Shown: positions 42,756 through 49,628 of the stretch, in pieces | Layout of the letters: each line of letters starts with the position of its first letter | Position numbering within the stretch: position 1 is the stretch's first letter | Origin: Spirochaetota bacterium | Lineage (GTDB): Bacteria; Spirochaetota; Brachyspiria; Brachyspirales; JACRPF01 | DNA length: 49,628 nt | Assembly (NCBI GenBank): GCA_038043445.1 | Contig: JBBTBY010000027.1 | Span: 120,153-169,780, forward strand | Direction: 5' to 3' | Notes under the pieces: model-generated | What the model saw: the letters and a program-made list of their open reading frames with translations, nothing else | Told to the model about the DNA's origin: nothing | Database searches by the model: none | Program-made: the position numbers and the translations under genes

Positions 42756-43313
42756 TCACTTGCCTGTTCGATATCGTAATACTATATTGTCCTCGAGCGC
42801 ACGTTCTTGAAATAATCTTCGTGCCGCGGCCGCGGCATCTTTTTTGTTCTTTGTCTTTTCCGACTTCACATATGCAGCGCATCCGGCCATGACATTTCGG
42901 AGCGCTTCGAGCGGGAGGAGATTCGCCGCCAGGCAATAGAAGCTTTTCGACCGGCCGTCATCATATCGATGCAGGAGCTCTTCGAGGATACGCATCCGCT
43001 TGCGCAGTTCATGGACATGGCTTTTGACGCCGTTCTTTGCGATCGATTTTAAATTCGTCAGCGTATTCTGATGGGTCACGAATGAGTCGGCCGTATCCCA
43101 GGACGCGAGCTTCTTACAGGGGAGGTCGCTGCAGTCCCCGCAAGTCTCATAGCCGTTGCTCTTTACGCAGCACGTTACGATCGAACATGACGGATGTTTC
43201 AGATGGAAGCTCTTGCCGAAGCAGCCCGGACAGCGCGAGGGACCTTTGGTGTGATATCGGGGGCAGAGACCGCACTGTATCCCGCAGCAGCCGATCGTCG
43301 GATGTTTTTTCAT
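42756..43313 (-). CDS. Cys-rich DUF3795-like protein
   Basis: About 185 residues from the ATG at 43313 (MKKHPTIGCCGIQCGLCPRY). Cysteines are clustered: GCCGIQCGLCPRY, 'CPGCFGK', 'CSIVTCCVKSNGYETCGDCSDLPCKKL', matching the DUF3795 pattern and suited to zinc or iron-sulfur binding. The C-terminal half is helical and basic. Function is unknown. It begins 10 bases after the end of the cassette insertion, and the likely original promoter is now 1.4 kb away on the far side of the cassettes. Base composition is like the host genome, unlike the cassettes. Confidence 0.78.
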   Translation of the reverse strand: MKKHPTIGCCGIQCGLCPRYHTKGPSRCPGCFGKSFHLKHPSCSIVTCCVKSNGYETCGDCSDLPCKKLASWDTADSFVTHQNTLTNLKSIAKNGVKSHVHELRKRMRILEELLHRYDDGRSKSFYCLAANLLPLEALRNVMAGCAAYVKSEKTKNKKDAAAAARRLFQERALEDNIVLRYRTGK

Positions 43314-43322
43314 GCGGCCCCG

Positions 43323-43372
43323 AGGGAACGGTGAATGGCCGATCACTTGTCCGCTCCACCCGCTTGTTGGGC
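43323..43372 (-). repeat. attC recombination site of cassette 2 (terminal site)
   Basis: Minus strand: R'' box GCCCAAC (43372-43366), then AAGCGGGTGGAGCG identical to the other attC, a variable middle, and a right arm ending CACC-GTTCCCT. The last box keeps G-TT but not the RRRY of an attC-derived R' box, as expected when the final cassette is joined to non-attC host DNA. Confidence 0.65.
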
Positions 43373-44005
43373 CGATTTTATTATTACTCCGAAATATATA
43401 TAATCATAAGTATAATCACATACAAAATATAGATCACAAAATATATTCTTAATAAAGGATAAATAATAAATATTAACTTCTGTAAAATATGTAATACTTA
43501 ATATATTATTTCTAAGTTTATCACTAATACTTAATGATAGTCTTTTTATTATTGTATCTTCGGAATTTAATGAATATAATAAGTATTGATATATGTAGTA
43601 AAATGATGAAATTATAGGCAAATCAATCTTTAAATATATATTATTTAATATTGCTGTTGCAGCTATTCCAATCGCATTACCTTCATTGTAGATAGAAATA
43701 CAATTCCGAAAAGGGCTCCAAGTCATCATGTAAGGCAAATATACGCCTCCATAATAACTGATATTATCATTTTCATGCATTTTCCACCAATCATTATAAT
43801 GTTTATACGTTACAATATTGTTACCTATCGCAACTCCATACCCATAGTTGCCAGATGTCATTTTACATATTTTCATGTTATTGTCTAGCATATTATTATA
43901 TTCGGATTTATATTCTATTAAAAATATATTTGATATTTCATCTTTTGGATATGTATTAATTGAGTAAAATACAATGAATATTATTATTGGATATATTTTA
44001 TTCAT
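43343..44005 (-). CDS. Cassette 2: unknown secreted or membrane-anchored protein
   Basis: 220 residues from the ATG at 44005 (MNKIYPIIIFIVFYSINTYP), a signal peptide or anchor. The rest is rich in Ile, Asn and Tyr, with 'GNYGYGVAIGNNIVTYKHYNDWWK' and 'YYGGVYLPYMMTWSPFRNCISIYNEGNAIGIAA'; no family is recognised. Codon use is extremely A/T-biased compared with neighbours. There is no ribosome binding site, but an in-frame ATG in the preceding attC (44077) could extend it. The frame has no stop before its own attC and reads 13 codons past it (ending AQQAGGADK), so the attC encodes the C terminus. Confidence 0.65.
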   Translation of the reverse strand: MNKIYPIIIFIVFYSINTYPKDEISNIFLIEYKSEYNNMLDNNMKICKMTSGNYGYGVAIGNNIVTYKHYNDWWKMHENDNISYYGGVYLPYMMTWSPFRNCISIYNEGNAIGIAATAILNNIYLKIDLPIISSFYYIYQYLLYSLNSEDTIIKRLSLSISDKLRNNILSITYFTEVNIYYLSFIKNIFCDLYFVCDYTYDYIYFGVIIKSAQQAGGADK

Positions 44006-44015
44006 TTTTATATCG

Positions 44016-44075
44016 GCCCAACGGAAGGGTGAGCGATTCGTGTACTCACGAATTCGCTCCACCCGCTTGTTAGGC
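44016..44075 (-). repeat. attC site (59-base element) of cassette 1
   Basis: Exactly 60 bases. Minus strand: R'' GCCTAAC (44075-44069), L'' GGGTGGAGCG, a central hairpin ATTCGTG-AGTA-CACGAAT, L' CGCTCACCC and R' GTTGGGC (44022-44016). L'' carries one extra G relative to L', the extrahelical base that fixes site orientation for integron integrase. All consensus elements (RYYYAAC, GTTRRRY) are present. Confidence 0.9.
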
Positions 44076-44087
44076 ATGCTTTTTAAT

Positions 44088-44717
44088 TTATTTAATGATT
44101 TCATATATTCCATCAGGATCATTAACTATATAATCATATTTTGAATTAATTATTTCTGATTCTGTAGCATAACCCCATTTTACTAATATTGCTCTTATCT
44201 CATTATTATGAGCACTAATAATATCTTCTTCTCTATCACCAATCATTATTGTAATGTTTTTATCTATTTTATAATCGAATAATAATTCCTTTATTATATT
44301 GGACTTTGTATTGTTCAAATCAGCACCATATATATTTATAAAATACTTTTTCATGTTAAACATAATCAATATTTTATCCGCTATTTCTTTTTGCTTATTT
44401 GTTGCTATATATAAACGATGCTTTTGTTTATGCATATATATTATTAACTTATCAACATCTTTATATAGTTTATTTTCCTTATATCCAATTGAAAAATATC
44501 TTTCACGATATAATGTAATAGCATTATTAATCAACGATTCATCATTCGTATTTAATATTTGACTGAATATAACTTTTAGACTTGGACCAATATAACTTCT
44601 ACCTTGATTAAATGAAATACATTTATATTTCATTTTATTTAATGCATAATTTATACTATTAATTATACCGCTACTTGAATCTGATATTGTTCCATCCAAA
44701 TCAAATATTATATTCAT
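44088..44717 (-). CDS. Cassette 1: HAD-superfamily phosphatase
   Basis: 209 residues, AGGG 6 bases before the ATG. HAD motif I is 'MNIIFDLDGTISDSS' (nucleophile and acid Asp pair), motif II 'LYIATNKQ', the lysine in 'TKSNIIKELL' and motif IV 'MIGDREEDIISAHNN'. The cap domain position and length resemble phosphoglycolate/pyrophosphatase-like HADs (Gph/PpaX group); the substrate is not determined. Codons are overwhelmingly A/T-ending, unlike the surrounding host genes. It begins 14 bases after the cassette recombination point and stops 12 bases before its attC, the normal cassette layout. Confidence 0.88.
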   Translation of the reverse strand: MNIIFDLDGTISDSSSGIINSINYALNKMKYKCISFNQGRSYIGPSLKVIFSQILNTNDESLINNAITLYRERYFSIGYKENKLYKDVDKLIIYMHKQKHRLYIATNKQKEIADKILIMFNMKKYFINIYGADLNNTKSNIIKELLFDYKIDKNITIMIGDREEDIISAHNNEIRAILVKWGYATESEIINSKYDYIVNDPDGIYEIIK

Positions 44718-44730
44718 ATATCCCTTGCAT

Positions 44731-44737
44731 GCCTAAC
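44731..44737 (-). other. Entry recombination point (G-TTAGGC) of the cassette array
   Basis: GTTAGGC on the minus strand matches the R box GTTRRRY, but the DNA upstream (44738 onward) shows no RYYYAAC/L'' arm of an attC and no attI features I recognise. It reads as host sequence ending in G joined to a cassette beginning TTAGGC. Confidence 0.65.
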
Positions 44738-44937: not shown

Positions 44938-45194
44938 ATGCTCAGCGTGTCCTTGGATACGGCCAGCAAGAACTGGACTGAGTTAGACCTGTCCTTGGCT
45001 ATGCTCAACAAGGACAAGGTTAAGTTCAGCTTGTCCAAGGATATGCTCAACAAGGACCAGGATATGCTCAGCTTGTCCGAGGATATGCGCAACAAGGACA
45101 TAGGATAAGTTCAACTTGACCAAGGATATGTCCAGCAAGGACTAGGTTAAGTTCAGCTTGTCCAAGGATATGTCCAACAAGGACAATGCTGAGT
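44938..45194. repeat. Degenerate 42-bp tandem repeat, about five units
   Basis: Units start at about 45001, 45043, 45085, 45128 and 45170, with a weaker one at 44938. The unit is roughly ATGCTCAACAAGGAC, a variable part, AGTTCAGCTTGTCCAAGGAT; each has two related 21-base halves, and GGACAAG/CTTGTCC arms can pair as hairpins. Read on the plus strand the first units encode 'MLNKDKVKFSLSKD'-like peptides, but units three and four carry stops and a one-base insertion. The repeat resembles short dispersed elements encoding 'LSLSKD/G' seen in many environmental genomes (from memory). Confidence 0.7.
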
Positions 45195-45320
45195 TCGCTA
45201 TATACTATTGTATTCTGGTGACAGTACAGGAGAACTTCGATATATACAAATATAAGTCAAATATACTGACATCATCGGTGTATGTGGGGGGTATGCTGTT
45301 GCGGCCGGGTAAGAGTTTCA

Positions 45321-45379: not shown

Positions 45380-48300
45380 ATGAAGCATATTATCATCATT
45401 GCCATGGCCGCGGCGGCGCTCAATGGCGGCTTTTTCCCCACATTCGGGGCAAAAGGCCCGACCGTTCAGTATACCTATACCCCCGAGCAGACGCGCCCGG
45501 GCTATTACGGCGAGATCACCATCGGTTTTGACAAGGCGGTCATACCGCTCTCCGACATCGACGCGATGACGGCTGCATATCGCAAAAAGCTCCGTATATC
45601 GTTCGCCCCTCCGCTCGCAGGTGAATTGACCGCGCTTGACAACCGGCAGGCGTCGTTCCGCTTCACGGAAGCGCCGCGGCGTTCAACATCGTATACGGTG
45701 ACGGTGAATGCCGCCGAAATGAGATCGGTGAAAGGCGAAAAGATCTCCGCCGCCGTGAACGGGATGGCGCTTCCCGGGAAAGAGTTCTTCTTTGAAACAC
45801 CGCGCATCGCAGTGAACGTGCGTTCTACCGGTGAACATCTTACTGCGCCGATCATCGTTGAGTTCACTATGCCCGTAACGGTGAAAGCGGTCAAGGAGCG
45901 TCTCTCCATTAAAACGCTCTTCGGGCTTTATACCGTGCAGTATGATATCGCGCCGCTCATCGTCACCAATATCGAGATCGTGAACGAGAAAGAAGTGACG
46001 AATATCGTTACGAGCGAAAGCGGATATCTCATTCAGCCGAAAGGGCTTTCCAAGGCGACGAAGTACACGCTTTCCGTGGGGAAGGACATACTCCCGGTGA
46101 ACGGGAATCTCGGGATGAAGAACGACTACAAATACGAGTTCACTACCTATCAGCCGCTCAAGGTCGCGGACGATCACGGCGGATTCTTTGCCGGCCGCAG
46201 AAGCATGGCGCCCGATGACGCACTCGCCATCAGATTCAATAATGATCTGGCACCGCAGGACCTCCGCGCAGCGGTACGCATTGAACCGAATGTGAAGGTC
46301 CTCGATGTTGTGCAGGAGCCCCACGCACTCTCCCTGCGCGCCGAATTCGAAGGTGACAGGAGTTACACGGTAACGCTTCGCGGCCTTAAGGACGTATTCG
46401 GGCAAACGCTTGAGAAATATGAGCTCTCGCTTACGACACACGGCATCGCCCCCTGGCATTCCACACCGCGCGGCGTCATGATCATGGAGCGCTCGCTCCC
46501 GCAGCTCTTGCCGATCAAGGTCTGTAATATGGAAGAACTCGCCATAGACTACACCTTTCTTCCGGGCATTGAGGGTATCCATGCAAATCTCACGAACAAG
46601 GATATTGCATACGAAAAGACAAAGCCCATCGCCGGCGAGTGGAAGCGCGGTCAGCCGTACACATACAATTTCAACATCGCGAGCGTAAGCGGCGGTGCGT
46701 CGGGACTCCTCCTCTACTCGGTGCGCGCCCGCGCACGCGGAACCTCATCATGGACATACAGCACCGGGCGTGTGTTCGTCACCGACATAGCGCTTACGGC
46801 GAAATTCTCGACCGATGAAGTCCTCGTATTCGCACGCAGCCTCAAGGACAATCGTCCTATCACCGGCGCCGCTGTCTTTGTCGGCGGCGTGAACCGCGGA
46901 AGAACCGGCACCGACGGCATCGCCCGCATCCGCGGATCGATCGATGCCGATCCGGTGGTCTCTGTCACCACGGAAAAGGATATAGCCCTCAATTTCGGTC
47001 AGCTGTTCGACGACAGCTACGGCGGTTACTACGATAACGACAGCGAGTACTCGTACGGCAAGGATATGTACGGCCGCGCAAAGGTCGGCGTCGTCAATCA
47101 CGGCGACCGCCGCGCAATATCCGAGATACTCCCTTTCATCTTCACAGAACGCTATCTCTACCGCCCCGGCGATACGGTCGAGGTGAAAGGCATCGTGCGT
47201 CACCGCGTCAATGATGCCTGGCAGACGAGTGCAGCGACGAATGAGGTCGGGTTCACGATATTCAATTCCCGCGATGAAGAGATAACGAATTACCGCCTCC
47301 GCTATGACGACTGGGGTTCGCTCGCGTTCTCGATCCCGATCCCCGCGGACGCGCCGACGGGTTACTACAAGATACAGTACCCCGTCTTCCGTACGTTCTC
47401 CCGGCATGACTGGGATGGCTACAAGATAACGAGCATCTCATTCCGCGTTGAGGATTTCAAACCCGCTACCGCGGAGATGAAGATCATCCCCGGGAAATTC
47501 TCCTATGTCTGGGGGGATACGTTCAGCGCCGACGTGCTCGGCTGGTATCTCTTCGGCGCGCCGATCATCAAGCCGATAAAGTATTCCATCGAGGTCGAGT
47601 CCGAGCCGTACGAAAGTTCACGGTACCCGGAGTATTCCTTCGGCGAGGGCTACTACTATGATGACGACTACGGCGGATACCGCTCACAGCGCGATTATTC
47701 GTTCACGCTCGCTGACGAAACGGTCACGCCGCCCGCAGACGGAAAGATACGTATCAAAAAAGAGATCGTGAAGTCCGATTTCAAAGGCGATGCATCGATA
47801 ACGCTGCGCGCATCGACGACGCTCGAGGACAAGAGCACGGTGTACGGCGCAAAGAGCGGCATACTTGTGCGTAACCCCGTGCATGTGGGGCTGAAGACAT
47901 CTTCCTATTTCATCGACGCAGGGAAGAACGCGGAGATAGGCCTTATCGCGCTCGGCGACGACGAACGCATCGTGCAGGGGCAGAATGTGAACCTGTCCAT
48001 CGACCGGCATGAATGGAAATCGTTCCAGCAGGCGGGCGTGAACGGCCTCTTCGGCTGGCAATGGCGCGAAGTGGTCACCTCCGCATATAAGAAGGATGTG
48101 AAGGTCGGCAATGAAATGCTATCCATTCCCATACGCGAGCCGGGCTTCTACCGCGTACGTGCGCGCTATTCGGTGCGCGGCCATGAACACAGCGCCGCGC
48201 GATGGTTCTATGTTCTCGGCAAGGGCGATTACGGCTGGCGCATCGAGGACGGCTATTCCATCGATCTCGAATCCGATAAAAAAGAATATCAGGTCGGCGA

Positions 48301-49628
48301 TACGGCGCGCATTCTCGTGAAGAACCCGTACAAAGAGGCGCTTGTCCTTACCAGCACGGAACGGGAAAAGATATTCGATGCCCGTGAGTTCACATCGCGC
48401 GACAGCATGATCGTGCTTACGGTGCCGATCACCGCTGAGCATATACCGAACGTCTATGTCTCGGCCATGCTCTTCACCGGACGTACCGGGACCAACATGG
48501 TCAAGGAGGATGGCGTAGACCCCGAAAAGCCGCGCTATCGCATGGGATACATCAATCTCCCGGTGGTGCCGCGCGAGAAGAAGCTCACCGTTACGCTCAC
48601 GCCATCGCGGGAGAATTTCCGCCCGCGCGATGAGGTAAGCGTTGCGATACGCGTAAGCGCAAGGTCGGGGGCCGTACTGTCGGAGATAACCATCGCCGCA
48701 GTGGATAAAGGCGTGCTCAATCTCGTCAATTACCGCATGCCCGATCCGCTCGAACATTTCTATGCATCGCGGCGGCTCGCGGTATCAACGAGTGAAGTGG
48801 CAAAGCTCATTCTCGGGCAGCGCTATCTCGCGGAAAAAGGCGAGGTCATCGGCGGTGACGGCGGCGCGGGCTTCGGCATGATAACCCCGCGCTCTGACTT
48901 CAAGTCGACCGTGTTCTATAAGCACACGATGCGTCTTGAGAAGGGCGAAGGGAGCGTAACGTTCACGCTGCCGGACAATCTCACCACGTTCACCGTCATG
49001 GCGGTGGCGCATACCAAACGCTCCGAGTTCGGCTACGGGGAGGCATCGTTCACCGTGGGGCAGCCGCTCATGATACTTTCATCGCTCCCGCGTTTCGTGC
49101 GGGCAGGCGACCGCATGTCCCTCGGTGCGACCGTGCATAATTACACGGGCAAGGATGCGCCGGTGACCGTTGTCATCGAAGCGGACGAAGCAATGGGCAT
49201 TACGGGACCGAAGACGAAGACGGTGAAAATAGCACAGGGTGCTTCCGCCGAGGTGCTGTTCGATGCATCGGTATCGCAAAGCCGCCGCGAGGAGTTGCCG
49301 GTCACGATCAAGGTCAAGGCAGGCGACAATACGGACGGTCTGCTTGAGAAGATACCGCTCCGCGAGCCGGATATCCCGGAAACGGTGGCCATCTATGAAA
49401 AGACCGGGGACAAGGCAGAGCACACGATAGCGCTTTCCGATAATGTACGCCCGGGATTGAGCCGTCTCTCCGTTGCGCTCTCGCCTTCGGCGTTCAGCGA
49501 ATTGACCGGGAGCGTCGACTATCTCGTGCATTATCCCTACGGATGTCTTGAACAGAAAAGCTCGAGCATACTCCCGCTCATCACCGGCGAGGATGTGATA
49601 CTGAAGCAGGAGATGCTCCGCAGTAAAA
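45380..49628 (+). CDS. Bacterial alpha-2-macroglobulin family protein (3' end outside the window)
   Basis: An open frame of 1416 codons to the window edge, beginning with a Sec signal peptide (MKHIIIIAMAAAALNGGFFP) without a lipobox. The N-terminal half has repeated beta-sandwich macroglobulin domains; 'FTERYLYRPGDTVEVKGIVRH' is the MG-domain signature seen in YfaS/YfhM proteins. Later come 'GFGMITPRSDFKSTVFY', 'LPDNLTTFTVMAVAHTKRSEFG' and the thioester region 'HYPYGCLEQKSSSILPLI' with the thioester Cys at about 1389 and Gln three residues on (CLEQ, intact). Such proteins are periplasmic protease traps; attacking proteases cleave a bait region and are bound covalently. A penicillin-binding protein 1C gene often follows, but lies outside this window. 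Confidence 0.9.
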   Translation, partial: MKHIIIIAMAAAALNGGFFPTFGAKGPTVQYTYTPEQTRPGYYGEITIGFDKAVIPLSDIDAMTAAYRKKLRISFAPPLAGELTALDNRQASFRFTEAPRRSTSYTVTVNAAEMRSVKGEKISAAVNGMALPGKEFFFETPRIAVNVRSTGEHLTAPIIVEFTMPVTVKAVKERLSIKTLFGLYTVQYDIAPLIVTNIEIVNEKEVTNIVTSESGYLIQPKGLSKATKYTLSVGKDILPVNGNLGMKNDYKYEFTTYQPLKVADDHGGFFAGRRSMAPDDALAIRFNNDLAPQDLRAAVRIEPNVKVLDVVQEPHALSLRAEFEGDRSYTVTLRGLKDVFGQTLEKYELSLTTHGIAPWHSTPRGVMIMERSLPQLLPIKVCNMEELAIDYTFLPGIEGIHANLTNKDIAYEKTKPIAGEWKRGQPYTYNFNIASVSGGASGLLLYSVRARARGTSSWTYSTGRVFVTDIALTAKFSTDEVLVFARSLKDNRPITGAAVFVGGVNRGRTGTDGIARIRGSIDADPVVSVTTEKDIALNFGQLFDDSYGGYYDNDSEYSYGKDMYGRAKVGVVNHGDRRAISEILPFIFTERYLYRPGDTVEVKGIVRHRVNDAWQTSAATNEVGFTIFNSRDEEITNYRLRYDDWGSLAFSIPIPADAPTGYYKIQYPVFRTFSRHDWDGYKITSISFRVEDFKPATAEMKIIPGKFSYVWGDTFSADVLGWYLFGAPIIKPIKYSIEVESEPYESSRYPEYSFGEGYYYDDDYGGYRSQRDYSFTLADETVTPPADGKIRIKKEIVKSDFKGDASITLRASTTLEDKSTVYGAKSGILVRNPVHVGLKTSSYFIDAGKNAEIGLIALGDDERIVQGQNVNLSIDRHEWKSFQQAGVNGLFGWQWREVVTSAYKKDVKVGNEMLSIPIREPGFYRVRARYSVRGHEHSAARWFYVLGKGDYGWRIEDGYSIDLESDKKEYQVGDTARILVKNPYKEALVLTSTEREKIFDAREFTSRDSMIVLTVPITAEHIPNVYVSAMLFTGRTGTNMVKEDGVDPEKPRYRMGYINLPVVPREKKLTVTLTPSRENFRPRDEVSVAIRVSARSGAVLSEITIAAVDKGVLNLVNYRMPDPLEHFYASRRLAVSTSEVAKLILGQRYLAEKGEVIGGDGGAGFGMITPRSDFKSTVFYKHTMRLEKGEGSVTFTLPDNLTTFTVMAVAHTKRSEFGYGEASFTVGQPLMILSSLPRFVRAGDRMSLGATVHNYTGKDAPVTVVIEADEAMGITGPKTKTVKIAQGASAEVLFDASVSQSRREELPVTIKVKAGDNTDGLLEKIPLREPDIPETVAIYEKTGDKAEHTIALSDNVRPGLSRLSVALSPSAFSELTGSVDYLVHYPYGCLEQKSSSILPLITGEDVILKQEMLRSK

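Follow-up and report, generated by a model that had tools for sequence, protein, structure and literature searches.

A probable Pc-attI-like platform heads an integrase-less cassette array and recurs before three other arrays in a spirochaete genome

Integrons are usually pictured as one integrase, one attI site, one promoter and one array of cassettes. Clusters of attC sites that lack an integron integrase are termed CALINs (IntegronFinder, PMC9024848). In many Xanthomonas genomes, CALINs are located away from the intI locus, from which an integrase can act on them in trans (PMC12444791). The Shewanella prophage M16-3 provides an example of a CALIN that has an attI of its own (PMC9892861, section 3.3). 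Little has been described of attI sites other than those of class 1, and no search is made for them (PMC9024848).

The window, which is the whole stretch of DNA analysed here, comprises the final 49.6 kb of contig C27 (G000:C27:120153-169780) of the source genome G000. The G000 assembly has 5.13 Mb in 178 contigs and is 97% complete. G001, whose integron lies on its contig 16 (locus L083), was the sole same-family relative compared. The Rfam scan over the window gave no match. Features of the array are listed in Table 1; the arrow in sequence formulas below marks the crossover. To the left of the platform, minisatellite-like repeats around AACAAGGACAAGG / CTTGTCCAAGGATATG were seen at 44940-45200, between the platform and the left gene. 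At 45380-49628 (plus strand), a long open frame runs past the contig end and looks alpha-2-macroglobulin-like by eye.

Table 1. Features of the cassette array, in window coordinates
Feature	Position	Strand	Basis or remark
Pc-attI-like platform, ends at crossover G44737	44737..44826	-	Full-length match to the C117, C150 and C31 blocks
Platform promoter, predicted	-35 TTGACT 44821-44816; 17-bp spacer; -10 TACTAT 44798-44793	-	Consensus match
Cassette 1	44022..44736	-	TTAGGCATGC...CCTTCCG, sequence read directly; boundaries from attC1
Cassette 1 gene, HAD_2-family hydrolase, 209 aa	44088..44717	-	Pfam PF13419, E 1.5e-31
attC1, intact	44016..44075	-	Covariance model R1 and DNA fold, the latter with two extrahelical bases
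Cassette 2	43324..44021	-	TTGGGCCGAT... to the consensus-register end of attC2; covariance-model alignment and register test
Cassette 2 gene, 220 aa, hydrophobic N-terminus	43343..44005	-	ORF
attC2, decayed	43318..43372	-	CTC in place of GTT in R', apical stem reduced in length, 5' half preserved
DUF3795 gene downstream, GC 0.534 (host-like)	42756..43313	-	PF12675, E 1.5e-6

An earlier note on this DNA had described two very AT-rich cassettes in head-to-tail order on the minus strand, and we confirmed this description: their GC contents are 0.229 and 0.263, vs 0.548 for the window. The left crossover G44737↓TT44736 and the inner crossover G44022↓TT44021 were upheld as well. Read along the minus strand, the array is G44737↓TTAGGCATGC-(HAD gene)-GCATGCCTAAC...CCTTCCG44022↓TTGGGCCGAT-(gene 2)-ATCGGCCCAAC.... 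Through direct reading of the sequence, the start of cassette 1 was found to be complementary to its own R'' (GCATGCCTAAC), and the start of cassette 2 to its own R'' (ATCGGCCCAAC). Such complementarity is expected if a cassette was once closed as a circle.

The earlier note had proposed an attC-model search, which was run with the covariance model R1, built from seven attC sites of G000. It gave a strong match for attC1 and a weak one for attC2. attC1 reached 86.7 bits (E 7e-21), a score inflated because attC1 is itself one of the seven sequences in R1. Its bottom strand folds as DNA with -17.6 kcal/mol (z -5.2), and the site possesses the R''-L''-L'-R' hairpin, extrahelical bases and the G↓TT of R'. 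Both cassettes are genuine.

The claim that each cassette carries an attC was right for the first cassette, and the attC of the second is decayed. attC2 scored 23.7 bits (E 0.02) with R1; it agrees with the G000 attC consensus over 26 nt and then diverges. The site folds no better than shuffled sequences (z +0.8), and it has neither an intact hairpin nor the G↓TT of R'. Ungapped comparison of its 3' half with the consensus gave 16 matching bases of 21; only 4 of 99,214 positions in the window attain this score. In this consensus register the crossover would be C43324↓T43323, with CTC where G-TT is expected. We conclude that attC2 is a decayed attC whose crossover G turned into C43324. The right boundary had previously been placed at G43329↓TT43328, about 5 nt off, within the region aligning as the L'-R' spacer. 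The segment 43329-44736 is thus not the natural excision unit. The earlier note had expected its excision to restore a continuous leader, but at the right edge there is a decayed attC in another register. Cassette 2 is probably no longer mobile and fixed by the decayed attC2. Of the two or more clustered attC sites that define a CALIN, the model built from G000 sites gave one strong attC and one decayed attC in the array. The product of the cassette 2 gene matched no Pfam family. The start codon of the DUF3795 gene abuts attC2.

No integrase was found in the window by tblastn with both IntI proteins, in agreement with the earlier note. A genome-wide integrase search, also proposed there, revealed an integron integrase on C109, the only contig of G000 on which the TIGR02249 cut-off was exceeded (335 bits, model positions 59-314), and an N-terminal integrase piece at the end of C70, with one stop within it. 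The ends of C70 and C109 overlap in sequence with several mismatches. These mismatches and the stop are probably assembly error at the contig ends, and two integrase copies on these contigs would be a possible alternative. Judging by product names given from reading translations, the neighbours of intI are ispG and an ABC transporter. Model R1 found no attC on the integrase stretches of C109 and C70.

On its left side the array begins with a block of about 90 bp, from the -35 box to G↓TT, which occurs four times in G000. A model made from the four sequences returned four strong matches in the genome (E < 1e-18, the next being 0.02), and the window copy had 70.9 bits with this model, which contained it. 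All four matches directly precede cassette arrays (window, C117, C150 and C31), and each copy terminates exactly at the crossover G↓TT that joins the first cassette. The distances from the -35 box to the crossover are 85, 85, 81 and 85 bp. A promoter of the form TTGAC(T/A)-17-TACTAT/TATAGT is predicted in four of the four copies, pointing into the array; for the window this is the promoter that the earlier note had named, and it was upheld. The C117 and C150 blocks share 92% identity over 92 bp, the C31 block shows 84% identity over the promoter half, and among the four copies the one in the window has diverged furthest. In a leave-one-out nhmmer search the window block was aligned end to end up to the crossover, but with a weak E of 0.19. 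With references that left out the window copy, the window flank scored 179, whereas none of the 1,127 other G↓TT flanks in the window exceeded 98 (z 7.3). The AT-rich ends of the platforms before G↓TT resemble published attI core ends, AATAAAATG↓TT (PMC12901181, PMC9892861). Beside the intI of G000 the HMM detected no platform block; by pairwise alignment, the C117 and C150 blocks show weak similarity to the sequence upstream of intI (1/300 and 2/300 shuffles, respectively). BLAST of the platform in 60 relatives gave no match beyond G000, and neither platform nor attC patterns were found in viral contigs. A different minisatellite (CACTGTGCGG) was seen upstream of the platforms on C31 and C117.

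Two other identities of the block were considered and rejected. A promoter cassette with its own attC was rejected by the lack of any R1 match in the block, and a MITE was rejected as no target duplication was visible by eye at the flanks.

The earlier note was right that no attC arm lies outside the left boundary. It had taken the flank for unique host sequence, and this flank proved to be a recurring element. It had also proposed a captured host promoter in place of a Pc/attI platform; the same block stands with the same spacing before three other arrays and only there. This recurrence at fixed spacing before arrays follows the pattern of Pc-attI and not that of a promoter captured once. We named the block attI-like, and not a complete integron platform, because no integrase gene adjoins it.

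The layout found in the relative also speaks against promoter capture. G001 contains a complete integron on L083, composed of intI (9151-7808, minus), a divergent promoter and then cassettes. Its promoter, TTGACA-17-TACATT, is located 84 bp before CCCAGTAATTG↓TTAGGAG. The array starts at TAATTG↓TTAGGAG, and six attC sites were detected up to the contig end. The integrases of G000 and G001 share 50.6% identity over the C-terminal 255 aa. Aligned with the four blocks, the attI region of G001 scored 123, while the highest score of 661 flanks from that AT-rich contig was 161; this is no better than chance flanks, and the support from G001 thus consists of layout and spacing, not of sequence. With DUF3795 and NUDIX as synteny anchors, no ortholog was found in G001, and hence no empty site at the gene level. 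At L083 9700-10800, several near-identical cassettes without evident long ORFs were noticed, each with a G001-type attC.

Through exact or near-exact copies of the attC core, we found further arrays in G000 on C150, C31, C117 and C66, three of them behind a platform-like block. The C31 array (L028 1-2720) has four cassettes behind its platform copy, and its last attC looks long and decayed. On C150, a second DUF3795-like gene is located about 0.6 kb past the array (L027 5915-6634), possibly by coincidence. C154, C98 and C75 (L085, L086 and L087) carry weak decayed attC sites of 32-36 bits without a platform block, and these are old scattered cassettes. Over 393 genomes of the phylum, the attC model matched in G000 and G001, with one weak single match elsewhere. 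In wider genome contigs, the attC pattern was found on the contig of G001 and at scattered single sites in other phyla.

The array on C66 is a single cassette (L029 6836-6108, minus), a VapBC-like pair by eye, inside a repeated hairpin. It entered at G↓AT in the hairpin loop, GCCGCATATCATGTG↓ATAGCTTAAGGATATGC. Cassette-free copies of the hairpin are located at C66:124841 and 125099, C72:117738 and 117381, and C47:87502. This is a genuine off-platform insertion for which empty copies can be read within G000 itself, and it shows that cassettes of this lineage do enter non-attI sites. A readable pre-insertion site, as the earlier note had proposed for the window, is thus present at C66 instead.

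From the anatomy of the locus, we consider it likely that the window holds an integrase-less array with a Pc-attI-like platform of its own, of which G000 has four dispersed copies. The earlier reading of a CALIN-like pair that has a predicted promoter directly ahead of it and came in at a single G↓TT is supported to this extent. How the copies were dispersed, by loss of intI from integron copies or by movement of platform plus cassettes, is a choice between two accounts that appear about equally likely.

It is possible, though doubtful, that the platforms are remnants of whole integrons, duplicated or acquired repeatedly, each without its own intI. The block would then survive as a promoter and docking site still in use, and this account concerns the origin of the platforms and not their present function. 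The arrays are short and partly decayed, as seen in attC2 of C27 and the fourth attC of C31, and degradation of integrons has been proposed as the source of CALINs (PMC9024848). However, with both integrases as tblastn queries, no relic was found over the 4.8 kb of the window to the left of its array, nor beside the other arrays as far as their left flanks extend (to the end of L030 for C117, and over a short distance for C31 and C150). Moreover, the similarity between C117 and C150 stops at a G directly ahead of the -35 box.

On the other account of origin, which we regard as somewhat unlikely, Pc-attI and cassettes would have been moved as a compound unit by the integrase and would have entered at G↓ sites, with intI left behind. 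In C117 and C150 (G↓CTATTTTTGAC) and in C31 (G↓TTACTTTTTGAC), the block is preceded on its left by a G, and outside the block the copies have no sequence in common. Such examples number only three or four, however, and two of them show G↓CT, not G↓TT. The right flank of C150 is, by eye, a 5'-truncated frame whose missing start is not evident in the short left flank.

We regard as very improbable the reading in which an integrase placed the cassettes at a secondary site of the attG type, a G↓TT with an ordinary host promoter on one side and DUF3795 on the other, and the cassettes captured that promoter. Insertion of this kind is known to occur (Loot et al. 2024, as cited in PMC11023631 and PMC12444791), no integrase is nearby, the genes on either side are host-like and C66 shows that off-platform insertion occurs in G000, but the reading is largely refuted by the recurrence of promoter and leader at fixed spacing before three other arrays and nowhere else, the left side being a block found only before arrays and not ordinary genomic DNA.

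If the window array stands on its own platform as we propose, the block would be a working attI and Pc on which the integrase acts in trans. Transcription from Pc would pass through the HAD cassette before cassette 2, and possibly continue into DUF3795. IntI from its separate locus, if expressed, could act in trans on the window array; G44737↓TT would be the docking site for new cassettes, and recombination of attI x attC1 could release cassette 1, while cassette 2 would stay, probably locked in place. On a wider scale, we might speculate on a split integron, in which a cassette-less integrase locus serves dispersed platforms in trans, platform and cassettes move together, and expression in the genome is spread over several small sites and not concentrated in a single long array; we hold this rather unlikely as a whole. 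In the open-licence PMC papers searched, we found no case of several promoter-bearing platforms in one chromosome together with an array-less integrase. The observations suggest that some CALINs are not debris but sites of active expression on which an integrase acts in trans. With the window locus, a spirochaete family has a defined candidate for attI, and C66 gives a readable off-platform insertion with its empty copies within one genome.

Compared with known systems, the window array resembles a CALIN in its two attC-bearing cassettes of one orientation without a nearby integrase, which a distant integrase could mobilise in trans (PMC12444791). It differs in being headed by a promoter and attI-like site common to three other arrays, and in the decay of its second attC. 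With attG insertions (Loot et al. 2024, Nat Microbiol, as cited in PMC11023631), it shares entry outside the intI locus; its left site, unlike theirs, is a conserved recurring block and not a one-off, and the C66 cassette fits attG better. The integron of G001 is similar in attC type, AT-rich cassettes, a promoter about 84 bp before TAATTG↓TTAGG and an IntI about 51% identical, whereas intI adjoins the array in G001 and is absent at the window locus. Like the CALIN of Shewanella M16-3, the window array lacks an integrase and starts at an attI-type site, and the M16-3 genome also has a complete integron. In M16-3, one CALIN and one complete integron with a common attI type are found in a prophage; G000, in contrast, has four chromosomal platforms that include a promoter and differ in sequence, and its integrase locus is array-less.
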